A DNA stretch of 42,993 nucleotides from Candidatus Poseidonia sp. (GTDB lineage: Archaea; Thermoplasmatota; Poseidoniia; Poseidoniales; Poseidoniaceae), in contig JAURDA010000010.1 of the NCBI GenBank assembly GCA_030828165.1, positions 1-42,993 of the forward strand, in the 5' to 3' direction. A program made the position numbers and the translations under genes. How positions within the stretch are numbered: position 1 is the stretch's first letter; each line of letters begins with the position of its first letter. Below the pieces are notes generated by a model. That model was not told the origin of the DNA and searched no databases. It saw nothing but the letters and a program-made list of their open reading frames with translations. This document shows positions 22,264 to 39,890 of the stretch, piece after piece.

Positions 22264-23439
22264 ATGGAGGACGTTGAAGCGTGGGCCCAAGCCCCAGAAA
22301 ACACGCTTGAGAGCCTCCGCCACGGCATCGTCCATTTTGACGGCATCGAGTTTGACATCAGGGTGACGGCGGACCGCCAACTCGTCGTCCATCACGATCG
22401 AGACGTTTCGGTTCCAAAGGGCCATCTGAGCAACAAACCGCTATGGGTTGAGGAATGGACATTGGACGACCTCGTTGGCCTCGGCTTCCTTGCCTTTGAG
22501 GACCTGCTTGACGATGCTAAAGTTCAACGCCAATGGGTGGAAAACGGGAAGATGGGGTGCATCGAAATCAAGCGACCGCATCCCAAAGCCGCCTCGGGAG
22601 GCGGTTATCTGGGCCGTCAACGCCACAACGAGCACATTGCTCTGGCCATGCGACTCGCTGAAGACGCGATGGAACAACGGGCCATACCCGTTGAAAACAC
22701 GGTGTTCTATTCTTTTCACAAAGGCATGCCCGAATCCGCTGCACTGGCCGGAACCTCACGCCCGTGGGCGGCGTTGATCCCGTACATCCCTCCCTACGGA
22801 AATCGCACGACGCAACGATTGCAGGCCTTCCCGCAATACCTCACCACGCCGTTTCGGCGACTCGTTCGACGTCATGAACAACAGGGAAGTTCAATGCTCC
22901 CGTGTGCCGTGGAGTATTTCCATTCGCGGACCCGCCATCTATCGGTTGGACGGGCGGTTGGCCTCCAGGGCGGTGGACGGCAACGTTTGGACCGTCACCG
23001 CAACGGCATGGCGACCTATGTTTGGCCGACGCGACCTCAGATTGAACACGACCTGCTTCGAGCGGGTTTGACGGGATTGACGGACCATGCGGATCCAGCG
23101 TTAACATGGCTTCCATCAGGTCATCCAAGATGGAACCAACCGGGAACACGTCCCCTGGACGATGAGCAATGGAGGCGGCTCGCTTCGGTCGAACATGACG
23201 ACCATCAAACCGTTCTTGCAGAGCTGCAAAACGAGACCCCGACATGGGCCGAGGCCGACGTGGCACGGCGAAGGCAACTTGTTGAAGAATGGCGGTCGGC
23301 CTGGTCATGGTCGGGCAGCGTTGAATCGATTCTAACCTCCGCCAACGGAACAACGCCGCCGTGGTCTGCACCCCGGCTCATTGGTCACCGTGGAAGCGGT
23401 AAGACATCGCGGCCGGTCCTGCACCCTCAGTCAAGGTGA
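22264..23439 (+). CDS. GDPD-like protein lacking the N-terminal HRG motif, with GHRGSGKT at its C-terminus
   Basis: The first 280 of 391 residues read as a glycerophosphodiester phosphodiesterase barrel: APENTLESL (residues 10-18), GIEFDIR with metal-binding E29 and D31, HHDRD (H44), MGCIEIKRP (E101), and GLTGLTDHADPAL (about 269-280), matching the final strand 'GvdGiiTD.P'. The first strand with the catalytic 'GHRG', which normally stands ~8 residues before PENT, is missing; an in-frame stop lies only 27 nt upstream of the ATG. A ~90-residue helical segment follows the barrel. Residues 370-381 read PRLIGHRGSGKT, which fits either the missing GDPD strand or a Walker A P-loop. It overlaps the convergent citrate synthase stop by 13 nt. 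Confidence 0.65.
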   Translation: MEDVEAWAQAPENTLESLRHGIVHFDGIEFDIRVTADRQLVVHHDRDVSVPKGHLSNKPLWVEEWTLDDLVGLGFLAFEDLLDDAKVQRQWVENGKMGCIEIKRPHPKAASGGGYLGRQRHNEHIALAMRLAEDAMEQRAIPVENTVFYSFHKGMPESAALAGTSRPWAALIPYIPPYGNRTTQRLQAFPQYLTTPFRRLVRRHEQQGSSMLPCAVEYFHSRTRHLSVGRAVGLQGGGRQRLDRHRNGMATYVWPTRPQIEHDLLRAGLTGLTDHADPALTWLPSGHPRWNQPGTRPLDDEQWRRLASVEHDDHQTVLAELQNETPTWAEADVARRRQLVEEWRSAWSWSGSVESILTSANGTTPPWSAPRLIGHRGSGKTSRPVLHPQSR

Positions 23440-24593
23440 CGCAGCGACTGTTCTTCGGCGATGTATTTTGGCCGGTAAATGGGCGTCCCTTTTCCACCAC
23501 GCATCACGGTGCGCTCGTCAAGGATTTGTGCACCGATACCGGCGACGCGAGCCCAACCAAAGAAGGTCGTGTAGTAGGTAGGGTCGGTGAATCCGATGTG
23601 GTGGAGCAGCGCCCCGCTGGCGATGTCAACGTTGGCGTTGGGGTTCGAGATTTTTGGATTCTCGGACAGCACTCGCGGGGCGACTTCGCGAAGCGTGCGA
23701 ATGATTTTGAAATTCTCATCGTCCGGGCAAAGTTGCTCTCCAAGGGCAAACTGAACGGTTGCCCTCGGGTCTTCCGCTCGAAGAACAGCGTGACCGAAGC
23801 CAAACACGGGGCGTTTTGCTGCGAGTTCACCACGAACAAAGGCTTCCACTTCGTCGGGATCGCTCGTACCGATGCGAAGGACGAACTCAAGGCACGACTG
23901 GTTCGCTCGCCCGTGAAGTGGACCCGAAAGGGCGTTCATCGCTCCTGCGATGGAGGCGTAAACCGTTGCGTGGCCGGAGGCAACGGCTTTCCCGGTGAAG
24001 GTGGAGAGGTTACCGCCCCCGTGGTCCATGTGAAGAACGAGGTAGGTGGCGAGAATGCGTTCCATCAAGTCCTGGTCAACCCCGTCGAGGTCGAGGGTAC
24101 GCACGAAGCGATGAACCATGGAAGCTGAAAGGTCGTCTTCTGGGATGTTCTCGCCGCGCCCGTCACGAATACGAAAGAGAAGCCCCATCATCCGTGGCAT
24201 GCGAGCGATGAGATTGAGAGCGTCCTCCTGCCAGTCCCCGGTGGTGTCCAACATACCGAGGGTGTGAATGCCGACGCTCAGCCAGTCCATCGGGTGACCG
24301 TCTCGAGGAAGGGTGTGAAAGACGGCTGCAACGCTGTTTGGAACTGCCCCTCGAGACACCAAATCGGCACGGAAGGCCTCGGCTTGGGCGGGGGTTGGAA
24401 GTTCCTTGTTGAACAGGAGGTAGACGATGTCTTCGGGAGCAAAATGGGCGAGTTCGGCAATGGGGTAGCCGCAGTAGTGAACGCCTTCGGTGGGGGTCAC
24501 AAAGGAAGTGCGGCAGGTGCCGACAGGAATCCCACGAAGTCCGGTGTTGAGGTGCGAGCGGTTGACGGTGAACATCGGTTCATCTCCAGTCAT
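23427..24593 (-). CDS. Citrate synthase, mitochondrial/eukaryote-like type
   Basis: Citrate synthase condenses acetyl-CoA with oxaloacetate at the entry of the TCA cycle. The catalytic set is present: GPLHGRANQ (His 227), FGFGHAVLRAEDPRA (His 268) and NANVDIASG (Asp 323), numbering from the ATG at 24593. 'GHAVLR..DPR', 'PLHG.ANQ' and the N-terminal GLRGIPVG...TSFVTPTEG are the forms found in mitochondrial-type enzymes, whereas most prokaryotic citrate and methylcitrate synthases carry 'GHRVYK'. Length 388 fits without a presequence. GGAGGG precedes ATG 24593, and a TTTATAC box about 39 nt upstream would give a short leader containing that site; ATG 24623 and 24575 are alternatives. Confidence 0.9.
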   Translation of the reverse strand: MTGDEPMFTVNRSHLNTGLRGIPVGTCRTSFVTPTEGVHYCGYPIAELAHFAPEDIVYLLFNKELPTPAQAEAFRADLVSRGAVPNSVAAVFHTLPRDGHPMDWLSVGIHTLGMLDTTGDWQEDALNLIARMPRMMGLLFRIRDGRGENIPEDDLSASMVHRFVRTLDLDGVDQDLMERILATYLVLHMDHGGGNLSTFTGKAVASGHATVYASIAGAMNALSGPLHGRANQSCLEFVLRIGTSDPDEVEAFVRGELAAKRPVFGFGHAVLRAEDPRATVQFALGEQLCPDDENFKIIRTLREVAPRVLSENPKISNPNANVDIASGALLHHIGFTDPTYYTTFFGWARVAGIGAQILDERTVMRGGKGTPIYRPKYIAEEQSLRHLD

Positions 24594-24628
24594 TCCTCGC
24601 CCTCCAAAAGAGCCGACAGCCATGTTTC

Positions 24629-24693: not shown

Positions 24694-25170
24694 CTATCGG
24701 TTCAACCGCCGTTTTTCAACAGGCCACGTTCTGAAGCCTTTCGTTGAGGTTCGGTCGGCGAACACGTGGAGGCGAATGGTTTGCCCGTCCACCACGATGG
24801 CGTCTTCGGCATCGATGCCCGGACAGGCGGTTTTCGTCGTGCCCCATGCTGCGGGTGTTGCAAGGTTCTCCCCCCACCACGGAAAGGCCTTGCATTGTTG
24901 GGGCCGAACCTCGTAGATCGAACATTGCTTCTGCTCGTTCAAATGAATGCAAACCCCGTCTTCTTCACGGCTTTTCAGCACATAACGACCGTCAAAGGTT
25001 TTCCGAGTATCGCGTTCCAACCACGCTTCGACATCGAGGCCAGCATGCTCGGAGAGCCGCTCTGCATCATCGGGTGAGAGGTAAACGATACCGCCGGGTT
25101 GGTCACAGCAACGTCCGCAGTTAGGCTGGCATCGGAAAGCGACGCCCTCCATCCACCACGGCGCCCTCAT
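24694..25170 (-). CDS. YkgJ-type cysteine cluster protein (putative Fe-S or zinc binding)
   Basis: A 158-residue protein of the YkgJ-like family. The N-terminal CxxxCxxCC cluster (residues 14-22: C-QPN-C-GR-CC) is followed by a GGIVYLSPDDAERL segment. The second cluster is C...C-SIYEVRPQQC-KAFPWW, all typical of the family. Eight or so Cys suggest a bound metal, thought to be Fe-S or zinc; no reaction is established for these proteins. Its ATG overlaps the stop of the upstream DnaA-like gene by 4 nt, so it is the third gene of that operon. ATG 25152 is an alternative closer to the first Cys. Confidence 0.8.
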   Translation of the reverse strand: MRAPWWMEGVAFRCQPNCGRCCDQPGGIVYLSPDDAERLSEHAGLDVEAWLERDTRKTFDGRYVLKSREEDGVCIHLNEQKQCSIYEVRPQQCKAFPWWGENLATPAAWGTTKTACPGIDAEDAIVVDGQTIRLHVFADRTSTKGFRTWPVEKRRLNR

Positions 25171-27233
25171 TCCTCTTCACCAACCAACACGGTTCGTGGG
25201 TGGATTCTGGAGAGACGTACAGGGACGCGAGGCATTGCCTCTTCGTTGAGAAGGTCGTCCGCAGAGATTCCAACGTCGTCAACGTTCCATTCCCCCTCGG
25301 GTTCGTAGGAATCAAGCGAAGAAGCGGCAACAGGTTCAGGTTCCTGTTCGTGGTTCTTTTTCCGTTTTGGAGAAGAACGACGCCCCACCTTTCGCCGGGT
25401 TTTGGCCGGTGCGTTCGCTTCAAACGGCGGCAACGGTCCTCGTTCAGGGTCGAGTTCAACCAGACGCTCTTCGATGCTTCGCAATTCATCGGCGATGGTG
25501 ATGAGTTCATCGATCTCCGCTTCGAGGGCCCGCTGTCCCAACATCACCATCTTCTCCTCCAGCCGGTTCAATTCGATGGACGCCTCAACGCCGGTTTGCT
25601 CCGTCCGCAGAAGTCGGGATTCGATGTTCTCGTCAAGGTCAACCAGAACATCGACCGCCCGCTCAACATCCTTGATGTTCAAGGGTTCCCGGTTGGAAAT
25701 CAAGTACTTCTCTCGCTCGTGAACATCCAAGACCGTTGGTCGACCGGGCGTGATGTGGTCAATGCTCTCGCGCACGTTTTGTTCAAACGTCGTCGTGTGA
25801 GTTGCTGCCGTAAGGTCCTCATCGAGCGAAGGGGGAAGGTAATCGTCCTCGCCCCAGGGCTCAACGTTCGTGCGAAGATCGATTCCGCCGGGCTCAACGC
25901 TCGAATAAACGCTGTCAAGCACTTCACCGACCATGGAGGCGGCGACGTCTTCAATCCGCTTGCTTTCGAGGGCGTCCGAGGCCGCTGATGGACCGCCTTC
26001 GAGGAAGACCGTCAAATCGTCTTGGTCCAGAAGAACACCGCCGCTCTCAAGAGCGAGCGCAACCCGCTCGAGGCGACCGTCGACCGTTGCCCACCCCGCC
26101 GGGTGTTCCCTTGCGATTTGGGCGAGATGCGGGTCTGCCAAGAGCAGATTCTTTTGGGCACTGCGCCACCGGGCGTACGCCATCATCGTTCCAACCGAAG
26201 GGGACTGAAGTGAGGCGACGGTGGCTTGGAGCAAGACCTCCTTGAGACGAGAGGGTGGAAGCGCATCAAGGGGTAGACGAGAGCCCACCAACACGTGAAC
26301 GCCGAGGTTCAGTGCTCGGTCAAGCATCACGCCCATGTGACGGTTCCAATGTTCCTCGGTTGCAAACAAATGGAGGTCGTCAACGAACAGGGCTGTTGCT
26401 CCCGCCAACGCTTCCTGCCAGTCTCCAACCGTTGGGTCCACCCCGTGAAGGTCGGCTGCCGAGACAACGAGAACGTGGCCTTCGTTTCGCCGCAACAGGG
26501 CTTGTCCGGTGGCGTGGAGCAAGAGCGAGATTCCAGACGCAGCATCGCCTTGAAGAAAGAGAGGATTGAACCGTTGACCCGGTGCATCAACAACCGCCTC
26601 GCACAAGCGGGTGGCATCAAAATTCTCTTCGGCGACGAACCACTGCTTGAAGGTCCGTTCGTTCGACCACGTTAACCGAGCGGGCCAGTCGGGAATCGAG
26701 GCACGCTTAACGGCCGAAGACGAGGCCGGTTGAGACGGCGGTTCGTTTTCGCTAAGCCCCTGAAAACCGTACGACGCCCGACCGCGTTGCTGTTCCAAAA
26801 CTTGGCTCCAAACAGGCCGACCATCGTCCTCTACCCCCACATACGCTGATGGTGCACCGTTTTCGCTCTCATCAACGGCTGGCGAGTTCAGTCGCTCCTG
26901 CAGTTGACGCAAACGCAGTGCTACGTGATCGGCATAGGTGGAACCCTCCTCGAGAAAATTCCGATGTTGCGGAACATCGGGGCCAAGCACACGTTCTGCA
27001 ATGAGGTCGTACGTTGGTCGTTGAGGAACGCCGACGCGCTGGAACACCGAGAGCGGTCGCTGTTCCACCGAGGTCACGCCACGAAGGGTGTTCAACTTCG
27101 ACCGAGCCGGTTCGTGATTTGGCCGCTCTGCGTCGTGAGAAGAAGCCTCTGAGGAGGAAGGTGACGCCGCTCGCTCACCGAGATGTCGCTTGGCGTCGTC
27201 GAGGACCGAGCGCAGCTTTGTCGGCGTGCTCAA
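25167..27233 (-). CDS. DnaA/Hda-like AAA+ domain protein with degenerate P-loop
   Basis: A 688-residue protein. Residues 1-180 are mostly disordered. Residues about 188-400 follow the DnaA/Hda ATPase layout: TFKQWFVAEEN.., 'AVVDAPGQRFNPLFLQG' (DnaA 'AvaeaPg.aYNPLfiyG'), a P-loop position reading GDAASGIS (229-236, no Lys), ALFVDDLHLFA as Walker B (281-291), 'HVLVGSRLPLDALP' (sensor I, DnaA 'ivissDrpP..l') and TVDGRLERVALAL near sensor II. No C-terminal DNA-binding domain IV is visible. Instead there is a long coiled-coil-like region (about 515-595) and a basic then acidic tail (KTRRKVGRRSSPKRKK). Without the P-loop Lys it probably binds ATP poorly and may be a regulator. ATGA overlaps join it to both neighbours. 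Confidence 0.7.
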   Translation of the reverse strand: MSTPTKLRSVLDDAKRHLGERAASPSSSEASSHDAERPNHEPARSKLNTLRGVTSVEQRPLSVFQRVGVPQRPTYDLIAERVLGPDVPQHRNFLEEGSTYADHVALRLRQLQERLNSPAVDESENGAPSAYVGVEDDGRPVWSQVLEQQRGRASYGFQGLSENEPPSQPASSSAVKRASIPDWPARLTWSNERTFKQWFVAEENFDATRLCEAVVDAPGQRFNPLFLQGDAASGISLLLHATGQALLRRNEGHVLVVSAADLHGVDPTVGDWQEALAGATALFVDDLHLFATEEHWNRHMGVMLDRALNLGVHVLVGSRLPLDALPPSRLKEVLLQATVASLQSPSVGTMMAYARWRSAQKNLLLADPHLAQIAREHPAGWATVDGRLERVALALESGGVLLDQDDLTVFLEGGPSAASDALESKRIEDVAASMVGEVLDSVYSSVEPGGIDLRTNVEPWGEDDYLPPSLDEDLTAATHTTTFEQNVRESIDHITPGRPTVLDVHEREKYLISNREPLNIKDVERAVDVLVDLDENIESRLLRTEQTGVEASIELNRLEEKMVMLGQRALEAEIDELITIADELRSIEERLVELDPERGPLPPFEANAPAKTRRKVGRRSSPKRKKNHEQEPEPVAASSLDSYEPEGEWNVDDVGISADDLLNEEAMPRVPVRLSRIHPRTVLVGEEE

Positions 27234-29185
27234 GACGCATCACCTTGGTAGCGCTTGAGGGCCTCGCCCTTCTCGTTGTAGAGAACGCTTGACTCCATGT
27301 CCTTCTCGTCGAACATGGTCCATGCACGATATACGGCGTCCATGTCAAGCGTTTTTTGTTCGTAACTTGCTGCTTCGCGTGCAGGTTTTTCCTCATCACG
27401 GTCAACCGGCACCAGGCTGCTCGACAACGGTTGACCGGTGGTGTTCGCCGGCAAGGTCACGGTTTGGAACGAAGTGGGTTCTGAGAATCCATCTGAATCA
27501 ACATCGGGCGACGCCGCAACGACATCGCGAAGTTCGGGCGACGGTCCTGCCAAATGACGGGAACCTTGGCGGTCAACCGCGTCGGCTTGGCGAAGCGAAA
27601 AGGCGTCCATGTTTTCCTTTCGGAAGGCGTCTTTTTTGCGTGGATGTTCCGGCCATGGAGGAAGCGTTGCGCTCGTTTTGGCGAGCGCATCGGTTTGTCG
27701 GTGATGGTTTTTGACCTCGGGTTGAGGCAAAACCGGTGGCTTTTTTCGAGTGGGAAGGCGTTGCGCCGTGCGCATTTTTGGAGGACCTGCGGGGAGGTCC
27801 GGCGTCGCTGATGGCGTGGGGCGTCGGCGGGCCGGTTGAATCAATTCGTCCTCGGCGGCTTTGAACCGAGGTGACTCGCTGATGTAACGACCTTCGTTGA
27901 ACGAGGCATCGGTTTGGGGGCGCCATGTCGTGCCGCCAATGGTCGTTGGAGACTGGAGGTCGTCGCTCACGGGGCTCGCTGACGCCGGAGAGATGCCGGG
28001 GGTCTGCCAGCCTTCAACGACGTCGCTGAGGGCTGCGGCGGCTTCGGCACGAAGGTCGTCATCAACCTCAGAACTGCCGCCTTCAATGACGGGCTCAACC
28101 GACGATGAGGCGGCTCCCAATTTTGCACCTTGATGTTGAATTTGAGCGGCCAACCACTGCTCTTCTTCCTCATCGGGTGCGAGCAGAAACGGTTCATCCC
28201 AAAGCAAATCGGGCTCGTCTAGCCAGGCATCCAAGGTTCTACGGGGCAGTTCAGTTGCCTCGCTCAAAAGACCGTGGCGAATGGAGGTGTCGAACATTTC
28301 CAGATCGGTCGAGCACAACACGGCGTGGTCGTTGAAGCGCGCCCCGTCGCACAAAGAGCGAAAGACGTTGAGCATCACGTCGTCACCAAAGGCGTTCCCG
28401 AGCCGGTCAAGTCCGTCGATGACGAGGACGCTGCGTTCGTTGCCCCATTGGAACCCGTTCACGGTGGCGAGCAGGGAGGCCCGATCCTCCAACACCTCGT
28501 AGCCGCCGTGGGGAGAGAGAAGAGCGTAGCACTGGGGACGGGGCAGACGTTGGGTGACTTCGGTGGAAGCATGCGGGAGTCCGAACAGCCCCAACACCGG
28601 AATCCCTCGTTCCGCCAGCTCCACGGCGAGGTGAATCATCGGATGCGGGTCTGGTGTGTCGAGGAGATACACGCCTCCGGGGGAAAGCGCCTGTTTGTTG
28701 GCGATCACCGAAGACCGACGGCGATGTTCGGAGGAGAGCGCGATTTCTTCGATGTCCTCCAAACGGGCCGCTCTGCGCCAAGAGGTGGCGGGCAAGCGCA
28801 CCGAAGACCACCAAGATTCGCCGTCCCCTTCGGTGGGTTGATGCTCAAGGTGCAGGACGCTTTCGGGGTGGTTTGCCATCGTGGCGCGAAGGGCGTTCAT
28901 GGTGAGTTCAAACAACCGAACCTCGTTCTCGACGTTCAGGGCATCGTCTTCAATGGCCATGAGCGCATCGAGACCCACCGAGGTCACGTCACCGTCGTGA
29001 AACGCCATGACCGGATGCCCAAGCCGAAACAGGAGCCAACCTCGGCGCCCCTCCTCGTCTCCGGATGCCCGGATTTCAACGGCACCCGATTGCTCGTGAA
29101 CCGCTAGGTTGCGAACCAAAACCCGCAGGACATCAACGCCACCTCGGCGCTCTTCCAGCAAATCTCCGTGCTCAAAGTCAACCAC
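27230..29185 (-). CDS. Two-domain protein: DUF4388/PATAN-like and DUF835-like regions plus disordered tail
   Basis: A 651-residue protein starting at GTG 29185. Residues about 17-115 resemble DUF4388/PatA N-terminal domains ('sGavei...g.rGwllFrlGhpv.A...g...G.dAl'), which occur in signalling proteins of gliding bacteria and cyanobacteria. Residues about 165-315 (LSPGGVYLLDTPDP..., then SVLVIDGLDRLGNAFGDDVMLNVFRSL and 'AVLCSTDLEMFDTSIRHGLL') match the pattern of archaeal DUF835, a degenerate ATPase-like sensory domain. The remaining ~330 residues are disordered and rich in Pro, Ser and charged residues. It heads the operon with the DnaA-like protein, whose start overlaps its stop by 4 nt. No clear TATA box precedes it. 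Family calls are from motif memory, not a search. Confidence 0.6.
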   Translation of the reverse strand: MVDFEHGDLLEERRGGVDVLRVLVRNLAVHEQSGAVEIRASGDEEGRRGWLLFRLGHPVMAFHDGDVTSVGLDALMAIEDDALNVENEVRLFELTMNALRATMANHPESVLHLEHQPTEGDGESWWSSVRLPATSWRRAARLEDIEEIALSSEHRRRSSVIANKQALSPGGVYLLDTPDPHPMIHLAVELAERGIPVLGLFGLPHASTEVTQRLPRPQCYALLSPHGGYEVLEDRASLLATVNGFQWGNERSVLVIDGLDRLGNAFGDDVMLNVFRSLCDGARFNDHAVLCSTDLEMFDTSIRHGLLSEATELPRRTLDAWLDEPDLLWDEPFLLAPDEEEEQWLAAQIQHQGAKLGAASSSVEPVIEGGSSEVDDDLRAEAAAALSDVVEGWQTPGISPASASPVSDDLQSPTTIGGTTWRPQTDASFNEGRYISESPRFKAAEDELIQPARRRPTPSATPDLPAGPPKMRTAQRLPTRKKPPVLPQPEVKNHHRQTDALAKTSATLPPWPEHPRKKDAFRKENMDAFSLRQADAVDRQGSRHLAGPSPELRDVVAASPDVDSDGFSEPTSFQTVTLPANTTGQPLSSSLVPVDRDEEKPAREAASYEQKTLDMDAVYRAWTMFDEKDMESSVLYNEKGEALKRYQGDAS

Positions 29186-29372: not shown

Positions 29373-29765
29373 ATGGAACCGTACAGCGCCGCACCGCTGA
29401 ACGGTGAAGAGGGGCGGGAACTGCACGAAGGTTTAGCGCTGTTTGACGAAGGCAAATTCTGGCACGCCCACGAGGCGTGGGAAGCGTTGTGGAACCGACT
29501 GAAACAACGGCAGGCTCCTTCCGAGGAGATTCTGCTCGTTCAAGGCTTCATTCAAACGGCGGCCTTGTTGCTCCATCATCAACGACGGAACGAAGCCGGT
29601 GTCGAGAAACAGTGGACAAAGGTCCAATCCAAACTCGAGGGGTGGTCCACCGCTTGGGGTCTTGATGTTGCCTTGCATCTCGAAACCATCGCGAACTACG
29701 CCGCCGATAACGGGCGTTGGACACTGGTTGCAGCCGATCACCAATTCCCCCGAACGAGGGTTTGA
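29373..29765 (+). CDS. DUF309 family protein
   Basis: A 130-residue helical protein with the DUF309 signature: 'FDEGKFWHAHEAWEALW' (residues about 25-41), where HEAWE carries the conserved His and Glu, followed by 'ILLVQGFIQTAALLLHHQR' and 'GVEKQW'. Family members are small helical proteins of unknown function; the conserved His/Glu pattern suggests a metal or active site. A TATA-like TTTCAAA is centred about 25 nt upstream of the ATG. The stop lies 1 nt before the next gene's probable GTG start. Confidence 0.82.
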   Translation: MEPYSAAPLNGEEGRELHEGLALFDEGKFWHAHEAWEALWNRLKQRQAPSEEILLVQGFIQTAALLLHHQRRNEAGVEKQWTKVQSKLEGWSTAWGLDVALHLETIANYAADNGRWTLVAADHQFPRTRV

Positions 29766-29766
29766 A

Positions 29767-30447
29767 GTGGACGCCTCGCCTCTTCGGAACATGGGTGGAG
29801 CTTCGTCGACGCTGCCACCGGACATGCTCCCGTTCATCCAAACCACGGTGGCTCAACCCTTCATCAACGGACGAAACGCAGGACTAGGGGCGAGTGCCGG
29901 ACTTGCCGTCGTGCTTTTTGCGCTCCTTTCCTTGGTTGCCTTCACGGCCCCGGTTGCAGGCCTCGTCGCCATAGCGGTGGCCTCCATGAACATGGTCGTG
30001 GTGTTGCTTCGCTATCGGGGACATGCGACCACGCCGCTGGCCGTGAACATGAATCACCCGTTCATGGACGGTGAGCCCCTTGGTGAGGCCGCTTTGCTCG
30101 TCCGCTTTTCCGACGGGACGTGGCGGGACCCTGGCGAACACCGGGTCCGTCTTGTCCCCGACGGACTTCTCGGAGGGTTCAACCTCGCCCACGATACGCT
30201 TGATTTTCCGGTTCTTGGCCACTTCACCGAAGCCAAGGAACGAACGCCAACCCTCAGCCGCCACCTGACGCTGATCAACCAAGCCATCGCTCTGCGCGAC
30301 GCCGTGAACGACGTCCCCGACCCCATCGAGACCGCCCGTGAGCGGGAAGCCATGGACACCGGTTTGCTCGAGCGCTCTTGGCTGGAAGAGGAGGAGAGCG
30401 TTGAGGTTGAGAGCCCGCTGGTGTCGTTTTTCAGGAAGAAAGAATGA
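29767..30447 (+). CDS. Membrane protein of unknown function
   Basis: A 226-residue protein with one hairpin of hydrophobic helices (about residues 42-62 and 64-88), flanked by a short N-terminus and a ~135-residue soluble C-terminal part. The soluble part has a beta-rich segment (LGEAALLVRFSDGTWRDPGEHRVRLVPDG) and an acidic helical end. GTG 29767, one nucleotide after the DUF309 stop, or ATG 29791 are both possible starts; translational coupling favours the GTG. I do not recognise the family. Confidence 0.6.
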   Translation: MDASPLRNMGGASSTLPPDMLPFIQTTVAQPFINGRNAGLGASAGLAVVLFALLSLVAFTAPVAGLVAIAVASMNMVVVLLRYRGHATTPLAVNMNHPFMDGEPLGEAALLVRFSDGTWRDPGEHRVRLVPDGLLGGFNLAHDTLDFPVLGHFTEAKERTPTLSRHLTLINQAIALRDAVNDVPDPIETAREREAMDTGLLERSWLEEEESVEVESPLVSFFRKKE

Positions 30448-30498: not shown

Positions 30499-31116
30499 GT
30501 GTTCGTGCCAACCAACGAAACTTGGATGTCCAAGGTGGAGCAATTGGCTGCCAGCGAGCAGGAAACCTTGCTTGGCACGTCGCTCTCTAGGCGCTTTGCA
30601 CGCCTCCCGCTTTGGTTGAACCACCCCGCCAACATCGGTGCGTTCTACGGTTTGCTCGTGGCGTTGGCGCTCATCCTCCCCTATGCGTTTGGCGATGAGG
30701 GCAACGAAGTATGGGCCGTTCAGTGGCTCTACCACACCTCGCTCTTGCTTGTCGCTTGTGCCTTTTTGGGATTCATTTCGTTGCTCCTCGTCGCCTTTTC
30801 CAAGCGGCATCCCGTTACCCCGCCGCGTGCGTTCCTCTACCCGATGCCCTTCCTCGGCTTGGCGTTGCTCACCGTCGACCGAACCGGTCTGCTCGGTATG
30901 CCGGCGCTCTTGGTGTGGACCCTTCTCTTGCTCCCCGGGCCGGTCTACGTCCACCTCTCGTGGGCGCCCCGGTGGCGGTTGCTTTGCATGGTTGAGGACG
31001 GAAACGATCCCTTTGTTGGTTTGGAGCCGAAAAACGAAGGCACCGGAGACGCCGAAGAAATGGTCGGCGAGGACGCTGAGATGCTCGAAGTTGTTGACGC
31101 CTTTGAATCGGAATGA
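30499..31116 (+). CDS. Four-helix membrane protein of unknown function
   Basis: A 205-residue protein with four hydrophobic helices (about residues 45-65, 75-105, 112-130 and 133-155), then a 50-residue acidic cytoplasmic-looking tail. The start is GTG 30499 or ATG 30526; TTACCTTGAAAAC about 24 nt upstream of the GTG could be a weak TATA region. No catalytic motif is visible and I do not recognise the family. The gene before it also encodes a membrane protein. Its stop lies 3 nt from the stop of the convergent kbl-like gene. Confidence 0.55.
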   Translation: MFVPTNETWMSKVEQLAASEQETLLGTSLSRRFARLPLWLNHPANIGAFYGLLVALALILPYAFGDEGNEVWAVQWLYHTSLLLVACAFLGFISLLLVAFSKRHPVTPPRAFLYPMPFLGLALLTVDRTGLLGMPALLVWTLLLLPGPVYVHLSWAPRWRLLCMVEDGNDPFVGLEPKNEGTGDAEEMVGEDAEMLEVVDAFESE

Positions 31117-33208: not shown

Positions 33209-36200
33209 TCAGGCATCTGGTTCGTCTTCATCCTTTTCACGGGTGAGGAACACCAGCAAGAAGAGCACGCCAACGATGGTCGTGAAGTATTGAGCAAAGG
33301 AGATCGAGAAGCCCGGTTCATCCCAAACGAGGGGATTCAAGCTGTCGTAATCGTCAACATCGCTCACACCGTCGCCGTCATCGTCTTCATCGGCGTTGTC
33401 ACCCAAGCCGTCACCGTCGGTGTCGACGGTTTCGTTGGCGTCGTACGGGAAGGCGTCGACGGTGTCTCGAACGCCGTCGTTGTCGTCGTCGTCATCGGCC
33501 CTGTCGCCAATGCCGTCACCGTCGATGTCCGTGCAGTCGTAGGCATCGTTGGGGAACAAATCGCCGTTCGTGCCCTCAGCGTTATCCCCGCATCCGTCGC
33601 CATCGCTGTCCAGCCATTGAGAGGCATCGTTGGGCAAGAAGTCGCCGTTGTCGCCGTAACCATCGCCGTCAGTGTCCACGGATTCATCAGCGTCGTTGGG
33701 GAACAGGTCCGTATTGTCTCCCACACCGTCGCCGTCAGCATCGCCGCATTCGCTTGCATCGCTGGGGAAACGGTCGCCGTTGGTGCCCTCGGGGTTATCA
33801 CCGCAGCCATCGCCGTCGGCGTCAACGGTCTGCGTGGCATCGTTGGGCAGGAAGTCGGAGTTGTCGCCAACCCCATCGCCGTCTGCATCGTCCGATTCAG
33901 ACGCATCGTTGGGGAACGCGTCGGCGTTGTCGCCAACCCCGTCACCGTCGCTGTCTGCTGATTCGTTGGCATCGTTCGGATAGAGGTCCCCGTTGTCGCC
34001 AACGCCGTCACCGTCGCTGTCAGGGCACTCCGTGGAATCGTTGGGGAATTGGTCACCGTTGGTTCCCGTAGCGTTGTCACCGCAACCGTCGCCATCGCTA
34101 TCAGCGGATTGCGAGGGGTCAAGGGGCAGGAAGTCGCCGTTGTCACCAACACCGTCACCGTCCGTGTCCACCGCCTCGTTGCCGTCGTCGGGGAAGAGGT
34201 CGCTGTTGTCACCCACGCCGTCGCCGTCCCGGTCAGAAGATTCGTTAGCGTCGGAGGGGAAAGCATCGCCGTTGTCGCCAACGCCGTCACCGTCCGAATC
34301 GACGGTCTCGTTCGCATCGTCGGGGAAGGCATCGCTGTTGTCACCCACGCCGTCGCCGTCTCGGTCCCCGGATTCATTGGGGTCGTTGGGGAAGCGGTCA
34401 GCGTTGTCCCCAACACCGTCGCCGTCGGTATCGTCCGTTTCGTTGGAGTCGTAGGGGAAATCATCGTCCACATCGTCCACGCCGTCGTTATCATCGTCGT
34501 CGTCCATGATGTCACAAACGTTGTCACCGTCGAAGTCAACGGGCACGGAAAGGTTCCACAAGGGGTTGGAGCCACAGGTTGTTTCGTCACTGTCCGACCA
34601 ACCATCGTCGTCGTCGTCCGTATCAACAGCGTCGCAGTCGCCGTCGCCGTCGGTGTCGAAGTCCGTCGGAATGGACGTGTTGTCGGTTGAACTGGACCCG
34701 CAGGTTTCCTCCAACGTGTCGAGGTAGCCGTCGTTGTCGTCGTCGGTGTCAGCGTTATCACCGGTTCCATCGCCGTCGTTGTCTGACCATTCCGTACCGT
34801 CGTAAGGCCAAAGGTCGTTGCTGTCGTCAACGCCGTCGTTGTCGTCGTCCGTATCGGCGTTGTCGCCCGTACCGTCAGCATCCGTGTCTTCCCATTCGTT
34901 CGGGTCAAGCGGGAACGGATCCATCGTATCGTTGTACCCGTCGTTGTCGTCGTCAGGGTCCCGGTCGTCGGGCAATCCGTCGTTGTCCGAATCAATGGGC
35001 GTGAAGGTGGACATCACTTGCATCGAGAACGACATGGTCGACGTCATGCCGGCCGCCGTCGTGGCGGTCACGGTGTAGTTCCTCGGGAAGAATTCAACGA
35101 ACGCAGGGGTGCCCCACATGGAGCCGTTCAGCGTCTCAAAGTAGACGCCCGTGGGCGGACTGGGAGAGATGGACCACGAGGATGTCTTGCCCGTGGTGTC
35201 GTTGAAATCAATCTCCGTCATGGACTGGTTCACAAGAACTTCAATGTGCGAGTACGGGTTGGACTTCACGATGATCGGGACGGTGAGGTCCTTGACCACG
35301 GCAATTTCGATTTGAACTTCGTCCGAACCGTTGGCTGCCGAGGCGTTCAGCGTGTAGGTCGTTGCAGCGAACTCCTGACTGGCATAGCCCGTGATGTCGC
35401 CCGTAACGGAATTGAACTGCCAGTTTTGGGGCAGCGGTGGCGTGAAGGTGAAGTTCGTACACCACGTGCAGTACGTCGTTCCGGGAATGGTGAAGGAGGT
35501 CGTGTTCACAATTTCAACCGTTGACGATTCAAACTCAACCGCATGGACGTAATCCAACTTGAACGGATAATTCACCGAGTAGTCGCCGTCCCAGCTGATG
35601 GGCGGCGAGTCGGAGATGTCCTTTTGCCCGTAGGTGGTGTTCACGTAGAGATCGAGCGTTTGGCTCATGCCGTAATTTGCAGGTGTGGCCGGCGTGTACA
35701 CCATCAAGCCCACGGGCGTGTCCAAGATCTTGCTAAAGTTCACGAAGGCGGGCGTCCATCCCTGGTTCACACCGAAGTAGATTTCCTTCTCACCGATGCC
35801 CATGATGGTCTTGTCCACCCCTGCGCACGAAACGGTCCCGTTCGCATAAAGCACACAGACGGTGCGGTCGGTAATTTCGACGTCCACCACTGCGCCGCCG
35901 GTGTCAACCTGCTGATAGGTGCTGGTCCACGAATCCAACCGCTGGCTGGTGTCGAGCATGTGGTAGGTTGGGTAGTAGTTGCTGTAGATGTAGCCCGAGC
36001 ACCAGAGGCTGTGATTGTCGTCCACGAGACAGGACTGCTCATTGCTGTACGTGCTCATGTTGATGGCGGCACCCATGTTACCAAACGTCCGATGGGGTGC
36101 GTAGGAGGGGTTTTGGTCGTCCAAATCGCCGAGGTTTCGCCCGAAACAATACACCGAATCGTCGTCGAGCTGGACACAGCTGGACCGACCCTCCATACCG

Positions 36201-39200
36201 AGGAACGTGACCGCCGTACGACCCGTTGGCATCTCCAGCAGTTCAACATCGCCGTTTTGGAGAATGCGACTGCCGTTGTCAAATTTGGAAAGTTTCACAT
36301 GATCGTAGCCAGTTTGACCGGGACCGGGCACCCAAACCGTACACGCAATGCTACCGTTTGACAAAATGGCGCAGAGGTTACGGTAGGACATGGACTCCAC
36401 CTCCACCGCCGAGGCCCCGCTCGGGAGGGGCATCCACGATATGCCGTTGATGGAAGGGGGCAAACCCCAGTCGGAATTCACCGAACGGCAGGCCACAGAG
36501 CCGTTGCTAAGCACGGCGCACTGGCCGGCATTGGATTTGTCCGAGGCCGTAGCGCCGTTGTAAGGGTCCTCCCACGTGATGGTGTAGGGGCTGTTGTACT
36601 GAACGGAGGTTGGGCACCGGACCACGGAGGTGGCGTTCATCACGCACCCCAGGGTACCGTAACCGACGGTAGAGATGTCGAAATCACCGGAAACGCGGGA
36701 TGGAATGGGCGTGCTGAACGTGTCGTCAATGGTGGTGGTGTTTGGCAGGAAATAGCGCTGATTGCTGATGCCGTTGTAGGGGTTTGTCGAGCCGTAGGTG
36801 TAGTACCTTCCCCAACAGGACATCCCGTCGTTGCCGTCAGCGCAAACCATACCGTTGTTCGTACCAAGGGTATCAAATCGACGGTCTTCAACCTGAAGCG
36901 TGAAGTTGAAGTTGGGCACCGTGCCCTCAAAGGAGAAGGATTCCGAAGCCGTCATCAACGGCATCAAGCGGTTGAGGTTCGCATCGAAGGGGAATCCGTT
37001 CGCCACCACCGGGAAGGTGCCGAAGGAACGAAGGCTGGGGCGGACCGTGACGACTTCCTCAAAGATGTTGACCAGGTCACCGCTGTTGTAGTCGGACGGA
37101 TGATACACTTCCCACGTGTCCACCCACTGTTGCACGACGATGGAGAACGTGGTGTTGATGACGTTGGCTTGAGCCGTACCGGTGAACTGGAAATTGGAGC
37201 CCGTCCAGCCATAGTAGTCGTTCAAACTGATGCCTCTCGGGGCTTCGGGTGCAAAGAACGCGTCGCATCGTTGCCCGAGGTCACCTTGAACACAGGTGTC
37301 CCTGACGTCAATTGGTTGGTTGACATAGGTGTCGATTTCGTACTCGTAAATCGGGGCGGTGAAGCGGAACGGCGCCGTTGCGTTCAGTTCAATGTCGTAG
37401 GATTGCGAAGTGGTGCTCGAATTGTACCAGACCGTGAATCGGTGGAGACCGAGACCGGTGAGCGTGCCGTTGATGTAGTGAGCCGGGAGGTCGTAGCCGT
37501 GCCATTCGGCACTGTAGTTGATGGACGAACCGGTGTATTGGGAATACGAGGCGGATTTATTGACCAGGTATCCAGAGCCGTTCGTGGCGCGGTAATTGTA
37601 CAACAGGTTGTCAGAGGTGATGATTTGGCTGGGACCGTATTCACCCGAACGGGTGGTGGTGAACAGGTCGAGCGTGTTGGCCGGCACATTCACGGCTGCA
37701 GGAGTGGGGCCTGGGGCGGTGTAGGGCCACGTGTTGGTTCGGTTTAGGCCCCAACAGGCGATCTCATCCGTGTCCAACAGCGCACAGAGTTGACGAGCGT
37801 AGTTGTTCCAAACCGATTTCGCAGCAATCGCCGTGGCGTTCGTGTTGTTGGGCAACGAGGCAAAGGTGACCTCGTGGTACGACGCTGGCGTCGCCGCACC
37901 TTGGCCCATTCCACGCATGTAGGCGTAGTTGATATCGCCGTAACAGGCCACGGAGCCGTTGGTGAGAACGGCGCAGACCGTGTTCTGTTCTTGAGCCATG
38001 TCAACCACGGACGAGCCTGAGTTGATGGTCGAGAGCAGACTCGTGGTTGAGGGCGTATCGGCCGATGCGTATTCGGTGGCGCCGGTGGTCGGATTGATGG
38101 TCGTCCCGAGACAGTACTCCAAGCCCGAAGATGACAAGGCGCAGATGGACTGGTCGAGGTGGACCAGTTCCGTGATGGTCGAACCGGACCACGTTACGGC
38201 GACGGAGGCCGTGGTAAAGGCATAATTTGAGTTGCTCGTAAGGATACGAGCGGGGTCTTTGCCCCAGCAGTTGACCTGCCCGGTTTCAAACAAGCCGCAG
38301 AAGGTGTCCGTCGTCCCTACGATTTGGGTCACGTTGTCCGAAGGGAGGTTGGAGATGTTGACAAAGGTGCGCGCCGAGACGCCGTTGTCGCCCCAGCAAC
38401 GGATGTCATTGGCTCCGTTAGCAGCGCAGAAGGCGGAGAAGGTGGACCCTACGGCCGTCCAGTCCAAGCCTGCAGGCTCGTGAACTTCGACCGGAGCTCG
38501 GGAGGCGTATACCGAGGAGTAATGCCCATTCAAATGATAATCGGGGCCAAGCGCCTTGTTGTTATCGTAGCCCTGACAAAACACCCGGCCGTCTTCCGTG
38601 AGCGAACATTGAGCATAATAGCCGCTCTCGGTGACCTGGGTGATGTTGGTTCGTGGAGGCACATAGGTGACACCGGTGGGCAGGCCTTCCACTTCGACGG
38701 TCACATCAGGGTTGATCCATGCATCACCGACCGGCAACACATGCACAAACTCAGCGCCTTCGGCCACGTCGACCACATGGTCGGCTGGAGCGAGGTAATC
38801 GGTCACCGTCACGAGGAAGGTGGAATTGACGGAAACGGTCGAGGTCCCGAAGGTGGTGTTGGCGAACACCTTGACCCAATCCGAACCGACCCCATCGCCC
38901 GTGATGGTCACGGCGCCGTTGGTGGCCACAGAGGCGTTGATGGAGCCGTTGGGGCCAAATTCCAACCCATACGTCGCCGATGGTGGGTTCGAGATCGCGT
39001 TGATGTTGAGGCTTGACCCGTTGACGACCGTGACGTCGACGTACTTGGCTCCGCCAGCGGTGTAGGCGTTGGGGTAGGAGAGACGAGTGGAAGGGTCAAG
39101 GGAATCGGTATCACTGGCCAAGGCTTGAAGCGTAACAGGGTCGTTGGAAAGCCCGTCGTGACATACAAAGTCGCCGTTGATGTTGGAGGGTTGGGTCGAG

Positions 39201-39799
39201 GTCCCAAACCAGTAGGCCGTCGTGGTGTCCCGTGTGATGTCATGGTCGGCGAGGGTGGACCACGGGAGAATGAAGGTGAGCCAATAATCGGTGGAACCGG
39301 CGAAGGCGGAATTGGCCGCCGTGACGTTCCACCAGGAAGCCGTGTTCGAGAAGGTCACGGACGTTGATTCGGTGGAGTCGGTCGGGTCGTCCGGACTGGT
39401 CGTCACGGTGTTGTTTTTGATGTAGAGAGTGTCTTGGCCCGCCCCGTTCATGATGACCAGGTGCTCGTAGGTCGACAAGTTTCCGTCCGTGTCAAATTCC
39501 AGCCCCCATGCGAAGGATTTCAGGTTGGTTGAGGTTTGGAGAGGGCTCTCGTCAAGGAGCATTCGGATGTAAAGATTGGTGGCGTTGGAGGCCGTTGAAA
39601 TGGCGGGGTACGTTTCGTTGCCCACGATATCGAGCACGGCGTTGTTCACATCGGCTACGGTGTCCCACATCGTTTGTCCGCCGCAGGTCATGGGCGAGAA
39701 GGACAGGGCGGGCGAGGACGGCAGCGTTGCGTTGCTTTGAGCGAGGGGAACCAGACTCGTGAGAAAAATCGTCACCAGAAACATGGCTTTGGCTTTCAT
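33209..39799 (-). CDS. Giant surface protein: two RCC1-like propellers, Ig-like segments, thrombospondin-type-3 array, C-terminal anchor
   Basis: A 2196-residue secreted protein with a signal peptide (MKAKAMFLVTIFLTSLVPLAQS). Next comes a ~200-residue domain with beta-sandwich character. Two blocks of RCC1-like blades follow, each blade marked by C-x(7-9)-C followed by W/Y/F-G (for example FCGLFETGQVNCWG, VCAVLTNGSVACYG). Block one spans about 38640-37580 (six Cys-paired blades plus one degenerate), block two about 36870-35820 (seven blades). Between and after them are Ig-like linkers such as 'LPQNWQFNSVTGDITG'. A ~550-residue DxDGDGxGDN calcium-binding array follows, then one C-terminal helix (FTTIVGVLFLLVFL) and a charged tail. 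ATG 39799 has TTTTATGG 26 nt upstream. Likely a calcium-stiffened adhesin or binding protein on the cell surface; ligand unknown. Confidence 0.88.
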   Translation of the reverse strand: MKAKAMFLVTIFLTSLVPLAQSNATLPSSPALSFSPMTCGGQTMWDTVADVNNAVLDIVGNETYPAISTASNATNLYIRMLLDESPLQTSTNLKSFAWGLEFDTDGNLSTYEHLVIMNGAGQDTLYIKNNTVTTSPDDPTDSTESTSVTFSNTASWWNVTAANSAFAGSTDYWLTFILPWSTLADHDITRDTTTAYWFGTSTQPSNINGDFVCHDGLSNDPVTLQALASDTDSLDPSTRLSYPNAYTAGGAKYVDVTVVNGSSLNINAISNPPSATYGLEFGPNGSINASVATNGAVTITGDGVGSDWVKVFANTTFGTSTVSVNSTFLVTVTDYLAPADHVVDVAEGAEFVHVLPVGDAWINPDVTVEVEGLPTGVTYVPPRTNITQVTESGYYAQCSLTEDGRVFCQGYDNNKALGPDYHLNGHYSSVYASRAPVEVHEPAGLDWTAVGSTFSAFCAANGANDIRCWGDNGVSARTFVNISNLPSDNVTQIVGTTDTFCGLFETGQVNCWGKDPARILTSNSNYAFTTASVAVTWSGSTITELVHLDQSICALSSSGLEYCLGTTINPTTGATEYASADTPSTTSLLSTINSGSSVVDMAQEQNTVCAVLTNGSVACYGDINYAYMRGMGQGAATPASYHEVTFASLPNNTNATAIAAKSVWNNYARQLCALLDTDEIACWGLNRTNTWPYTAPGPTPAAVNVPANTLDLFTTTRSGEYGPSQIITSDNLLYNYRATNGSGYLVNKSASYSQYTGSSINYSAEWHGYDLPAHYINGTLTGLGLHRFTVWYNSSTTSQSYDIELNATAPFRFTAPIYEYEIDTYVNQPIDVRDTCVQGDLGQRCDAFFAPEAPRGISLNDYYGWTGSNFQFTGTAQANVINTTFSIVVQQWVDTWEVYHPSDYNSGDLVNIFEEVVTVRPSLRSFGTFPVVANGFPFDANLNRLMPLMTASESFSFEGTVPNFNFTLQVEDRRFDTLGTNNGMVCADGNDGMSCWGRYYTYGSTNPYNGISNQRYFLPNTTTIDDTFSTPIPSRVSGDFDISTVGYGTLGCVMNATSVVRCPTSVQYNSPYTITWEDPYNGATASDKSNAGQCAVLSNGSVACRSVNSDWGLPPSINGISWMPLPSGASAVEVESMSYRNLCAILSNGSIACTVWVPGPGQTGYDHVKLSKFDNGSRILQNGDVELLEMPTGRTAVTFLGMEGRSSCVQLDDDSVYCFGRNLGDLDDQNPSYAPHRTFGNMGAAINMSTYSNEQSCLVDDNHSLWCSGYIYSNYYPTYHMLDTSQRLDSWTSTYQQVDTGGAVVDVEITDRTVCVLYANGTVSCAGVDKTIMGIGEKEIYFGVNQGWTPAFVNFSKILDTPVGLMVYTPATPANYGMSQTLDLYVNTTYGQKDISDSPPISWDGDYSVNYPFKLDYVHAVEFESSTVEIVNTTSFTIPGTTYCTWCTNFTFTPPLPQNWQFNSVTGDITGYASQEFAATTYTLNASAANGSDEVQIEIAVVKDLTVPIIVKSNPYSHIEVLVNQSMTEIDFNDTTGKTSSWSISPSPPTGVYFETLNGSMWGTPAFVEFFPRNYTVTATTAAGMTSTMSFSMQVMSTFTPIDSDNDGLPDDRDPDDDNDGYNDTMDPFPLDPNEWEDTDADGTGDNADTDDDNDGVDDSNDLWPYDGTEWSDNDGDGTGDNADTDDDNDGYLDTLEETCGSSSTDNTSIPTDFDTDGDGDCDAVDTDDDDDGWSDSDETTCGSNPLWNLSVPVDFDGDNVCDIMDDDDDNDGVDDVDDDFPYDSNETDDTDGDGVGDNADRFPNDPNESGDRDGDGVGDNSDAFPDDANETVDSDGDGVGDNGDAFPSDANESSDRDGDGVGDNSDLFPDDGNEAVDTDGDGVGDNGDFLPLDPSQSADSDGDGCGDNATGTNGDQFPNDSTECPDSDGDGVGDNGDLYPNDANESADSDGDGVGDNADAFPNDASESDDADGDGVGDNSDFLPNDATQTVDADGDGCGDNPEGTNGDRFPSDASECGDADGDGVGDNTDLFPNDADESVDTDGDGYGDNGDFLPNDASQWLDSDGDGCGDNAEGTNGDLFPNDAYDCTDIDGDGIGDRADDDDDNDGVRDTVDAFPYDANETVDTDGDGLGDNADEDDDGDGVSDVDDYDSLNPLVWDEPGFSISFAQYFTTIVGVLFLLVFLTREKDEDEPDA
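33350..35010 (-). repeat. Thrombospondin type 3-like repeat array (coding)
   Basis: Tandem ~23-residue (about 69-bp) units of the form D-S-D-G-D-G-V-G-D-N-x-D-x-F-P-x-D-x-x-E-S occupy the 3' part of the giant gene. Three larger units contain DGCGDN, then GTNGDxFPxD and a second Cys (near 34090-34030, 33810-33745 and 33598-33530), giving a higher-order pattern of three or four units. Asp side chains at regular spacing imply bound calcium. The repetition also leaves long meaningless open frames in other frames and on the opposite strand. Confidence 0.9.
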
Positions 39800-39820
39800 A
39801 CTCTGTGCCAGGGGCACGCA

Positions 39821-39828
39821 CCATAAAA
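39821..39828 (-). promoter_or_regulatory. TATA-like box for the giant surface-protein gene
   Basis: TTTTATGG on the minus strand, centred about 26 nt upstream of the ATG at 39799. It supports this start, directly before the signal peptide, over the in-frame upstream start at 39844. Confidence 0.55.
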
Positions 39829-39890
39829 CGGTTGTTGGGTTCATGAATCACGGACCAATCATGAACGGTGCGGCGACGAGCCTTAACCAC

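Follow-up and report, generated by a model that had tools for sequence, protein, structure and literature searches.

A DnaA-type ATPase domain without the DNA-binding domain, paired with DUF835 in Poseidoniales and fused to it in related archaea

Gene B of a small gene cluster in Candidatus Poseidonia carries a genuine AAA+ domain of the DnaA domain III type. Together with its neighbor, gene A, it looks from domain content like a divided form of a single conserved protein of archaea, which in other members of the phylum runs from an N-terminal domain through a DnaA-type AAA+ domain to DUF835 in a single chain. Our best reading is that a DnaA ATPase has been repurposed within a signalling scaffold and does not act as a replication initiator. 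Below we describe the cluster, its two large proteins, their fused homologs and their inheritance, and then weigh this reading against four others.

Results

Organization of the cluster

The window, by which we mean the whole stretch of 42,993 nucleotides that was analyzed, contains three minus-strand genes, A, B and C, flanked by the genes listed in Table 1. In the original prediction these genes were joined by ATGA overlaps. The three open reading frames and their coordinates were as described and B and C do overlap by ATGA, but the overlap of A and B is TTGA and includes the TTG start of B. No response regulator, kinase or receptor was found in the Poseidoniales cluster, which counts against a signalling role. 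An anti-phage defence system was considered and rejected, as A, B and C gave zero matches to the PADLOC models. Elsewhere in the window (33209-39844, minus strand) lies a gene for a probably secreted protein of 2211 aa, in which RCC1-like repeats are combined with putative Ig repeats and thrombospondin type 3 repeats.

Table 1. Coordinates of the cluster, its subregions and its neighbors in the window.
Feature	Position	Strand	Description
Gene A	27230..29185	-	651 aa, GTG start; N-terminal domain (alpha/beta), DUF835 (inactive KaiC-like), long variable tail
A N-terminal domain, residues 1-113	28847..29185	-	Shared with the N-terminus of fused archaeal proteins (profile matches and alignment)
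A DUF835-like region, residues ~167-318	28232..28687	-	No P-loop; fold matches KaiC/RecA/FlaH (weak)
Gene B	25167..27233	-	688 aa, TTG start; DnaA-type AAA+ with long N- and C-terminal extensions, domain IV absent
B AAA+ domain and lid, residues 178-415	25989..26702	-	AlphaFold pLDDT 91.4; B. subtilis DnaA domain III, TM 0.84
B degenerate P-loop GDAASGIS, residues 229-236	26526..26549	-	Lys position is Ile235, codon 26529-26531
B C-terminal stretch	25170..25313	-	Recurrent motif PEGEW-[ND]-[IV]-D ... DLL ... EEE-end, in several genera of both families
Gene C	24694..25170	-	158 aa, ATG start; CxxCxxCC (YkgJ-type) protein, PF03692 7.4e-12
m7	29824..30447	+	Small membrane protein, divergent from A; two adjacent transmembrane stretches (hydropathy); no Pfam match
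DUF309 gene	29373-29765	+	Divergent neighbor of A
Further ORF	30499-31116	+	Divergent-side neighbor
Citrate synthase	23427-24623		Downstream of A-B-C

Gene B carries DnaA domain III without domain IV

A single-sequence scan of B matched Pfam Bac_DnaA (PF00308) over residues 193-318 (E=1.5e-6), and the NCBIfam models of DnaA and Hda matched at 2.1e-12 (residues 168-393) and 4.9e-8, respectively. When 20 orthologous B domains were aligned, Bac_DnaA matched all 20, at best with 3.2e-18. A profile of the B domain searched against the PDB found DnaA (8bv3, E=9e-28) and Hda (3e-7), with DnaC and other AAA+ proteins weaker. The AAA+ domain was also modelled with AlphaFold (pLDDT 91.4, pTM 0.88). The best 18 Foldseek matches to this model were all DnaA or Hda, with other AAA+ proteins appearing from 1.8e-8 on; the top match was domain III of B. 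subtilis DnaA (TM 0.84), while Hda reached a query TM of up to 0.76. Pfam, NCBIfam, the model and the fold match agree on the DnaA/Hda similarity that had been claimed for B, and the structural test proposed with that claim placed the model inside the DnaA/Hda clade.

Domain IV, the DNA-binding helix-turn-helix of DnaA, is absent from B: Pfam detects the ATPase domain alone, and the NCBIfam DnaA match stops at model position 317 of 437 (at ~340 in the fused homologs described below). It had been proposed that a coiled coil takes the place of domain IV. The first half of this proposal stands, but the coiled coil after the AAA+ domain did not rise above shuffles in a crude heptad test. The segment that joins Walker A to Walker B carries ssDNA-contacting, initiator-specific helices in DnaA. 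In Poseidoniales this segment is ~7 residues shorter (50 versus 57) and forms one short helix in the model; it is full length in most fused homologs. B thus shares with bacterial DnaA domain III (PF00308) the AAA+ core and lid fold, Walker B and, in most orthologs, a sensor-II-like Arg, but differs from bacterial DnaA in the missing domain IV, in the shorter segment of the Poseidoniales, in the loss of the P-loop Lys in the window's genus and in its genomic context, which is DUF835 instead of dnaN and recF.

Gene A combines an N-terminal domain with DUF835

The window's own A gave zero Pfam family matches, DUF835 included. DUF835 (PF05763) was found in 16 of 18 A orthologs (best 7e-19), and on this basis we assign it to the window copy by homology, that copy being too diverged to match alone. 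The prediction of a DUF835-like region in A was in this way borne out through the orthologs. A P-loop was found in none of the 18, and the fold of the modelled DUF835 part weakly resembles KaiC, RecA and FlaH. In the account of Galperin and colleagues (PMC5847659), DUF835 is a KaiC domain that has been inactivated and that accompanies REC and PAS in response regulators of two archaeal groups, Methanomicrobia and Thermoplasmata. Similar to these signal-transduction proteins, A has a DUF835 without a P-loop as its second domain; unlike them, the partners here are a DnaA-type AAA+ domain and the N-terminal domain instead of REC and PAS. A further DUF835 protein is apparently encoded outside the cluster in the window's genome (G000) and in most genomes of family f1, which have two matches each.

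The N-terminus of A had been likened to DUF4388/PatA. We rejected this label, since the DUF4388/PATAN model (PF14332) had zero matches in the 18 A orthologs and nothing significant in 20 genomes. What is left is a resemblance by eye, in the similar order of helix, strands and glycines and in a GxxAL helix.

The two halves are fused in other archaea

A search of the whole phylum with the B profile returned strong DnaA-type domains in other families. At four fetched loci a single ORF encodes the N-terminal domain, DnaA and DUF835 in that order (L119, 717 aa; L125, 658 aa; L130, 867 aa; L132, 977 aa), and a fifth, L123, encodes DnaA and DUF835. Bac_DnaA scored 1.6e-22 in L123 and between 1e-46 and 1e-60 in the four proteins with all three domains, DUF835 scored 1e-21 to 1e-26, and the profile of the A N-terminal domain matched the four and also L126. 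A scan with DUF835 as the query, limited to one genome per species, gave 80 named loci. A DnaA domain is present at 28 of these, and in 27 of the 28 it shares a single ORF with DUF835; nearly all of the 27 fused ORFs also contain the N-terminal domain of A. Their hosts are Methanomassiliicoccales, Thermoplasmata and Halarchaeoplasma MAGs. In the literature searched we found no description of DnaA with DUF835, or of a cellular archaeal DnaA of this kind, with a mention in the KaiC-hub paper (PMC5717392) possible; the fusion of N-terminal domain, DnaA AAA+ and DUF835 is a new result.

A tree of 70 AAA+ domains placed the B proteins of Poseidoniales in one clade (100/99) on a long stem. The tree neither joins this clade to the fused proteins nor separates the two, so the kinship of B and the fused protein rests on their shared partner domains. 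The neighborhoods of the fused genes yielded no homologs of m7 or C, so these two may be additions made in Poseidoniales only. The DnaA-like protein of L122 is up to 58% identical to DnaA of Bacillota, which suggests that the DnaA domain of these archaea was transferred from bacteria.

At L124, DUF835 is fused to HisKA_7TM near a DnaA-like gene. Additionally, genes for KaiC- or Rad51-family ATPases directly adjoin the DnaA/DUF835 genes at L130 (3575-4267), L132 (4347-5030) and L124 (5636-6337). Both observations speak for a link to signalling.

DnaA-type domains also occur in other settings. Thermoplasmatota proteins of 1200-1400 aa (L120, L121, L126, L133, L135) have a second architecture, with the AAA+ domain near the C-terminus and, in some, zinc ribbons after it. 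Family f11 has a conserved DnaA-like protein of 425-452 aa without domain IV and without an adjacent DUF835 (L128, L129, L131, L136); the L128 copy is close to DnaA (NCBIfam 6e-94).

P-loop decay and selection

The P-loop reading of the original prediction was confirmed: residues 229-236 of B are GDAASGIS, with Ile235 in place of the Lys of GxxxxGK[ST]. No sampled member of g1, the window's genus, has this Lys (GDAASGIS, AEPQAGCS etc.). Outside g1, g2 and g5, most genera of the two families have an intact Walker A; it reads GR[ST], a K to R change, in most sampled members of the sister genus g2 and in g5, and it deviates in two members of g4 also. B orthologs mostly retain the DD of Walker B and the arginine of the lid, and all 26 readable fused copies keep both GK[ST] and Walker B. 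The description of B as having lost its P-loop lysine therefore holds for the window's genus but not for most other genera or the fused homologs. Judged by these motifs, the decay is lineage-specific.

When the window was compared with the closest relative sampled, dN/dS was 0.13 for the AAA+ domain of B, 0.065 for residues 1-345 of A and 0.051 for C. By this measure A, B and C are functional genes under purifying selection, despite the lost Lys in B.

A, B, C and m7 are inherited as a block

Across 194 genomes of the order, we found A in 115, B in 120, C (strong matches alone) in 114 and m7 in 114. The genomes are related to one another and incomplete, so that a Fisher value computed on them does not give the probability of independent events. 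C is nested within the genomes that have B, and m7 follows almost the same pattern as the other three. All four genes are present in 104 of the 194 genomes and none in 72. In several genomes with part of the set, the break falls between A and B, as contigs ending at that point would produce. Removal of one contaminant genome, G091, lowers the count for B to 119. That archaeal MAG contains a bacterial-type dnaA (L087, G091:C23, 3093-4466) whose neighbors are sized like dnaN, recF and gyrB, a probable contamination. Orthologs are spread across 15 of 21 genera, one of the 15 (g19) being the contaminant. In seven genera (g11, g12, g13, g15, g17, g19 and g20; one genome each) m7-A-B-C is missing as a unit and the flanks of the gap are intact, with the glycine C-acetyltransferase-like gene, citrate synthase and genes beyond in place. 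Where it is present, B occupies the same syntenic position beside citrate synthase in dozens of genomes from two families.

Co-occurrence of the three genes, the second test proposed for the cluster, was thus found among genomes of the order. The three-gene operon needs one correction: although the genes are co-inherited, C points the opposite way from B in several f2 genomes, so that it belongs to the block without always being part of the operon. Taken together, orthologs in many genera, conserved gene order and purifying selection indicate that A-B-C is more than a chance grouping. The cysteine-cluster identity given to C was upheld, as the protein matches PF03692 (E=7.4e-12; 46.2 bits versus a cut-off of 23) with the Cys cluster present. 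C resembles the YkgJ/CxxCxxCC family in this match and its cysteine pattern; its orthologs as a group go together with the A-B module, and many of these genomes also encode weaker paralogs at other places.

Discussion

We tentatively regard A and B as complementary halves of a signalling scaffold of archaea whose fused, probably ancestral, form is one protein with the N-terminal domain, the DnaA-type AAA+ domain and DUF835, and we would put this not far short of an even chance. The DnaA AAA+ domain has been kept, the DNA-binding domain dropped and a dead KaiC domain added, so an assembling scaffold in signal transduction would be the simplest account. DnaA AAA+ domains assemble side by side. 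In B, the AAA+ domain would no longer open origins and could serve as an oligomerising switch that lines up the domains of A, with m7 as a putative membrane anchor and C as a candidate metal-binding accessory. ATP would set assembly in most genera. In the window's genus the switch would be nucleotide-independent, making the AAA+ fold a structural or partner-controlled platform. The proposal of a signalling or positioning complex built from degenerate ATPases is partly supported: neither the structure test nor the co-occurrence test refuted it, and DUF835 and the fused homologs strengthen the link to signalling, but the positioning part does not hold. It is also possible, at somewhat below even chances, that archaea of the Thermoplasmatota lineage captured the DnaA ATPase domain from bacteria and made it the engine of a signalling hub, which was split in Poseidoniales and became a pseudo-ATPase in one genus.

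Replication control is an unlikely alternative, in which B and the fused protein would be Hda-like regulators with archaeal Orc1/Cdc6 or the replication clamp as their target. The closest folds of B are indeed two replication proteins, DnaA and Hda, and Hda is likewise a DnaA domain III without domain IV. However, Hda is ~230 aa long and acts by binding DnaA, which is absent from archaea, whereas B has 688 aa with long extensions in hosts without a DnaA initiator. A regex for the archaeal PIP box found no conserved box in A or B, the region of the ssDNA-contacting helices is shortened in Poseidoniales, and the partner domain, DUF835, is linked to signalling. Seven related genera do without the entire block, which would be improbable for a core replication regulator.

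Slightly less probable still is control of motility or pili, with the module regulating archaella or type IV pili in the manner of bacterial PATAN-domain regulators or FlaH/ArlH. The resemblance of DUF835 to KaiC/FlaH points this way, as did the earlier PatA analogy, and motility and the module are both common in family f1. Within f2, however, the predicted co-variation with archaellin fails, and we rejected the archaellum link on the basis of this survey: 10 of 24 B-positive f2 genomes (the contaminant G091 among the 24) lack archaellin, and every g16 or g21 genome sampled is one of these; conversely, A and B are missing from 19 f2 genomes that do have archaellin, most of which belong to g13 and g20 and some to g18. 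Additionally, no motility genes were recognised in the neighborhood and DUF4388/PATAN was not detected.

That B is a relic turning into a pseudogene in the window's genus is very improbable and largely refuted by the selection test, for although the P-loop is lost and the long tails are poorly conserved, the reading frame is open in sampled members of the genus, gene order is conserved, Walker B and the fold are retained and the AAA+ dN/dS is low. Bacterial contamination or chance similarity has almost no probability left: bacterial dnaA contigs can enter MAGs of this order, as in G091, but the constant position beside citrate synthase and the fusion of archaeal DUF835 to the DnaA domain in relatives refute it for B.

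In the usual view, DnaA is the initiator of bacteria and Orc1/Cdc6 its counterpart in archaea. A conserved archaeal family that joins a DnaA ATPase lacking its DNA-binding domain to a KaiC-type domain would show that an initiator ATPase was repurposed for signalling. The B orthologs and fused homologs form a natural gradient, with active ATPases at one end and inactive ones at the other, in which the loss of ATP dependence by AAA+ scaffolds may be followed, and the four-gene block is a signalling candidate for the uncultured MGII archaea.
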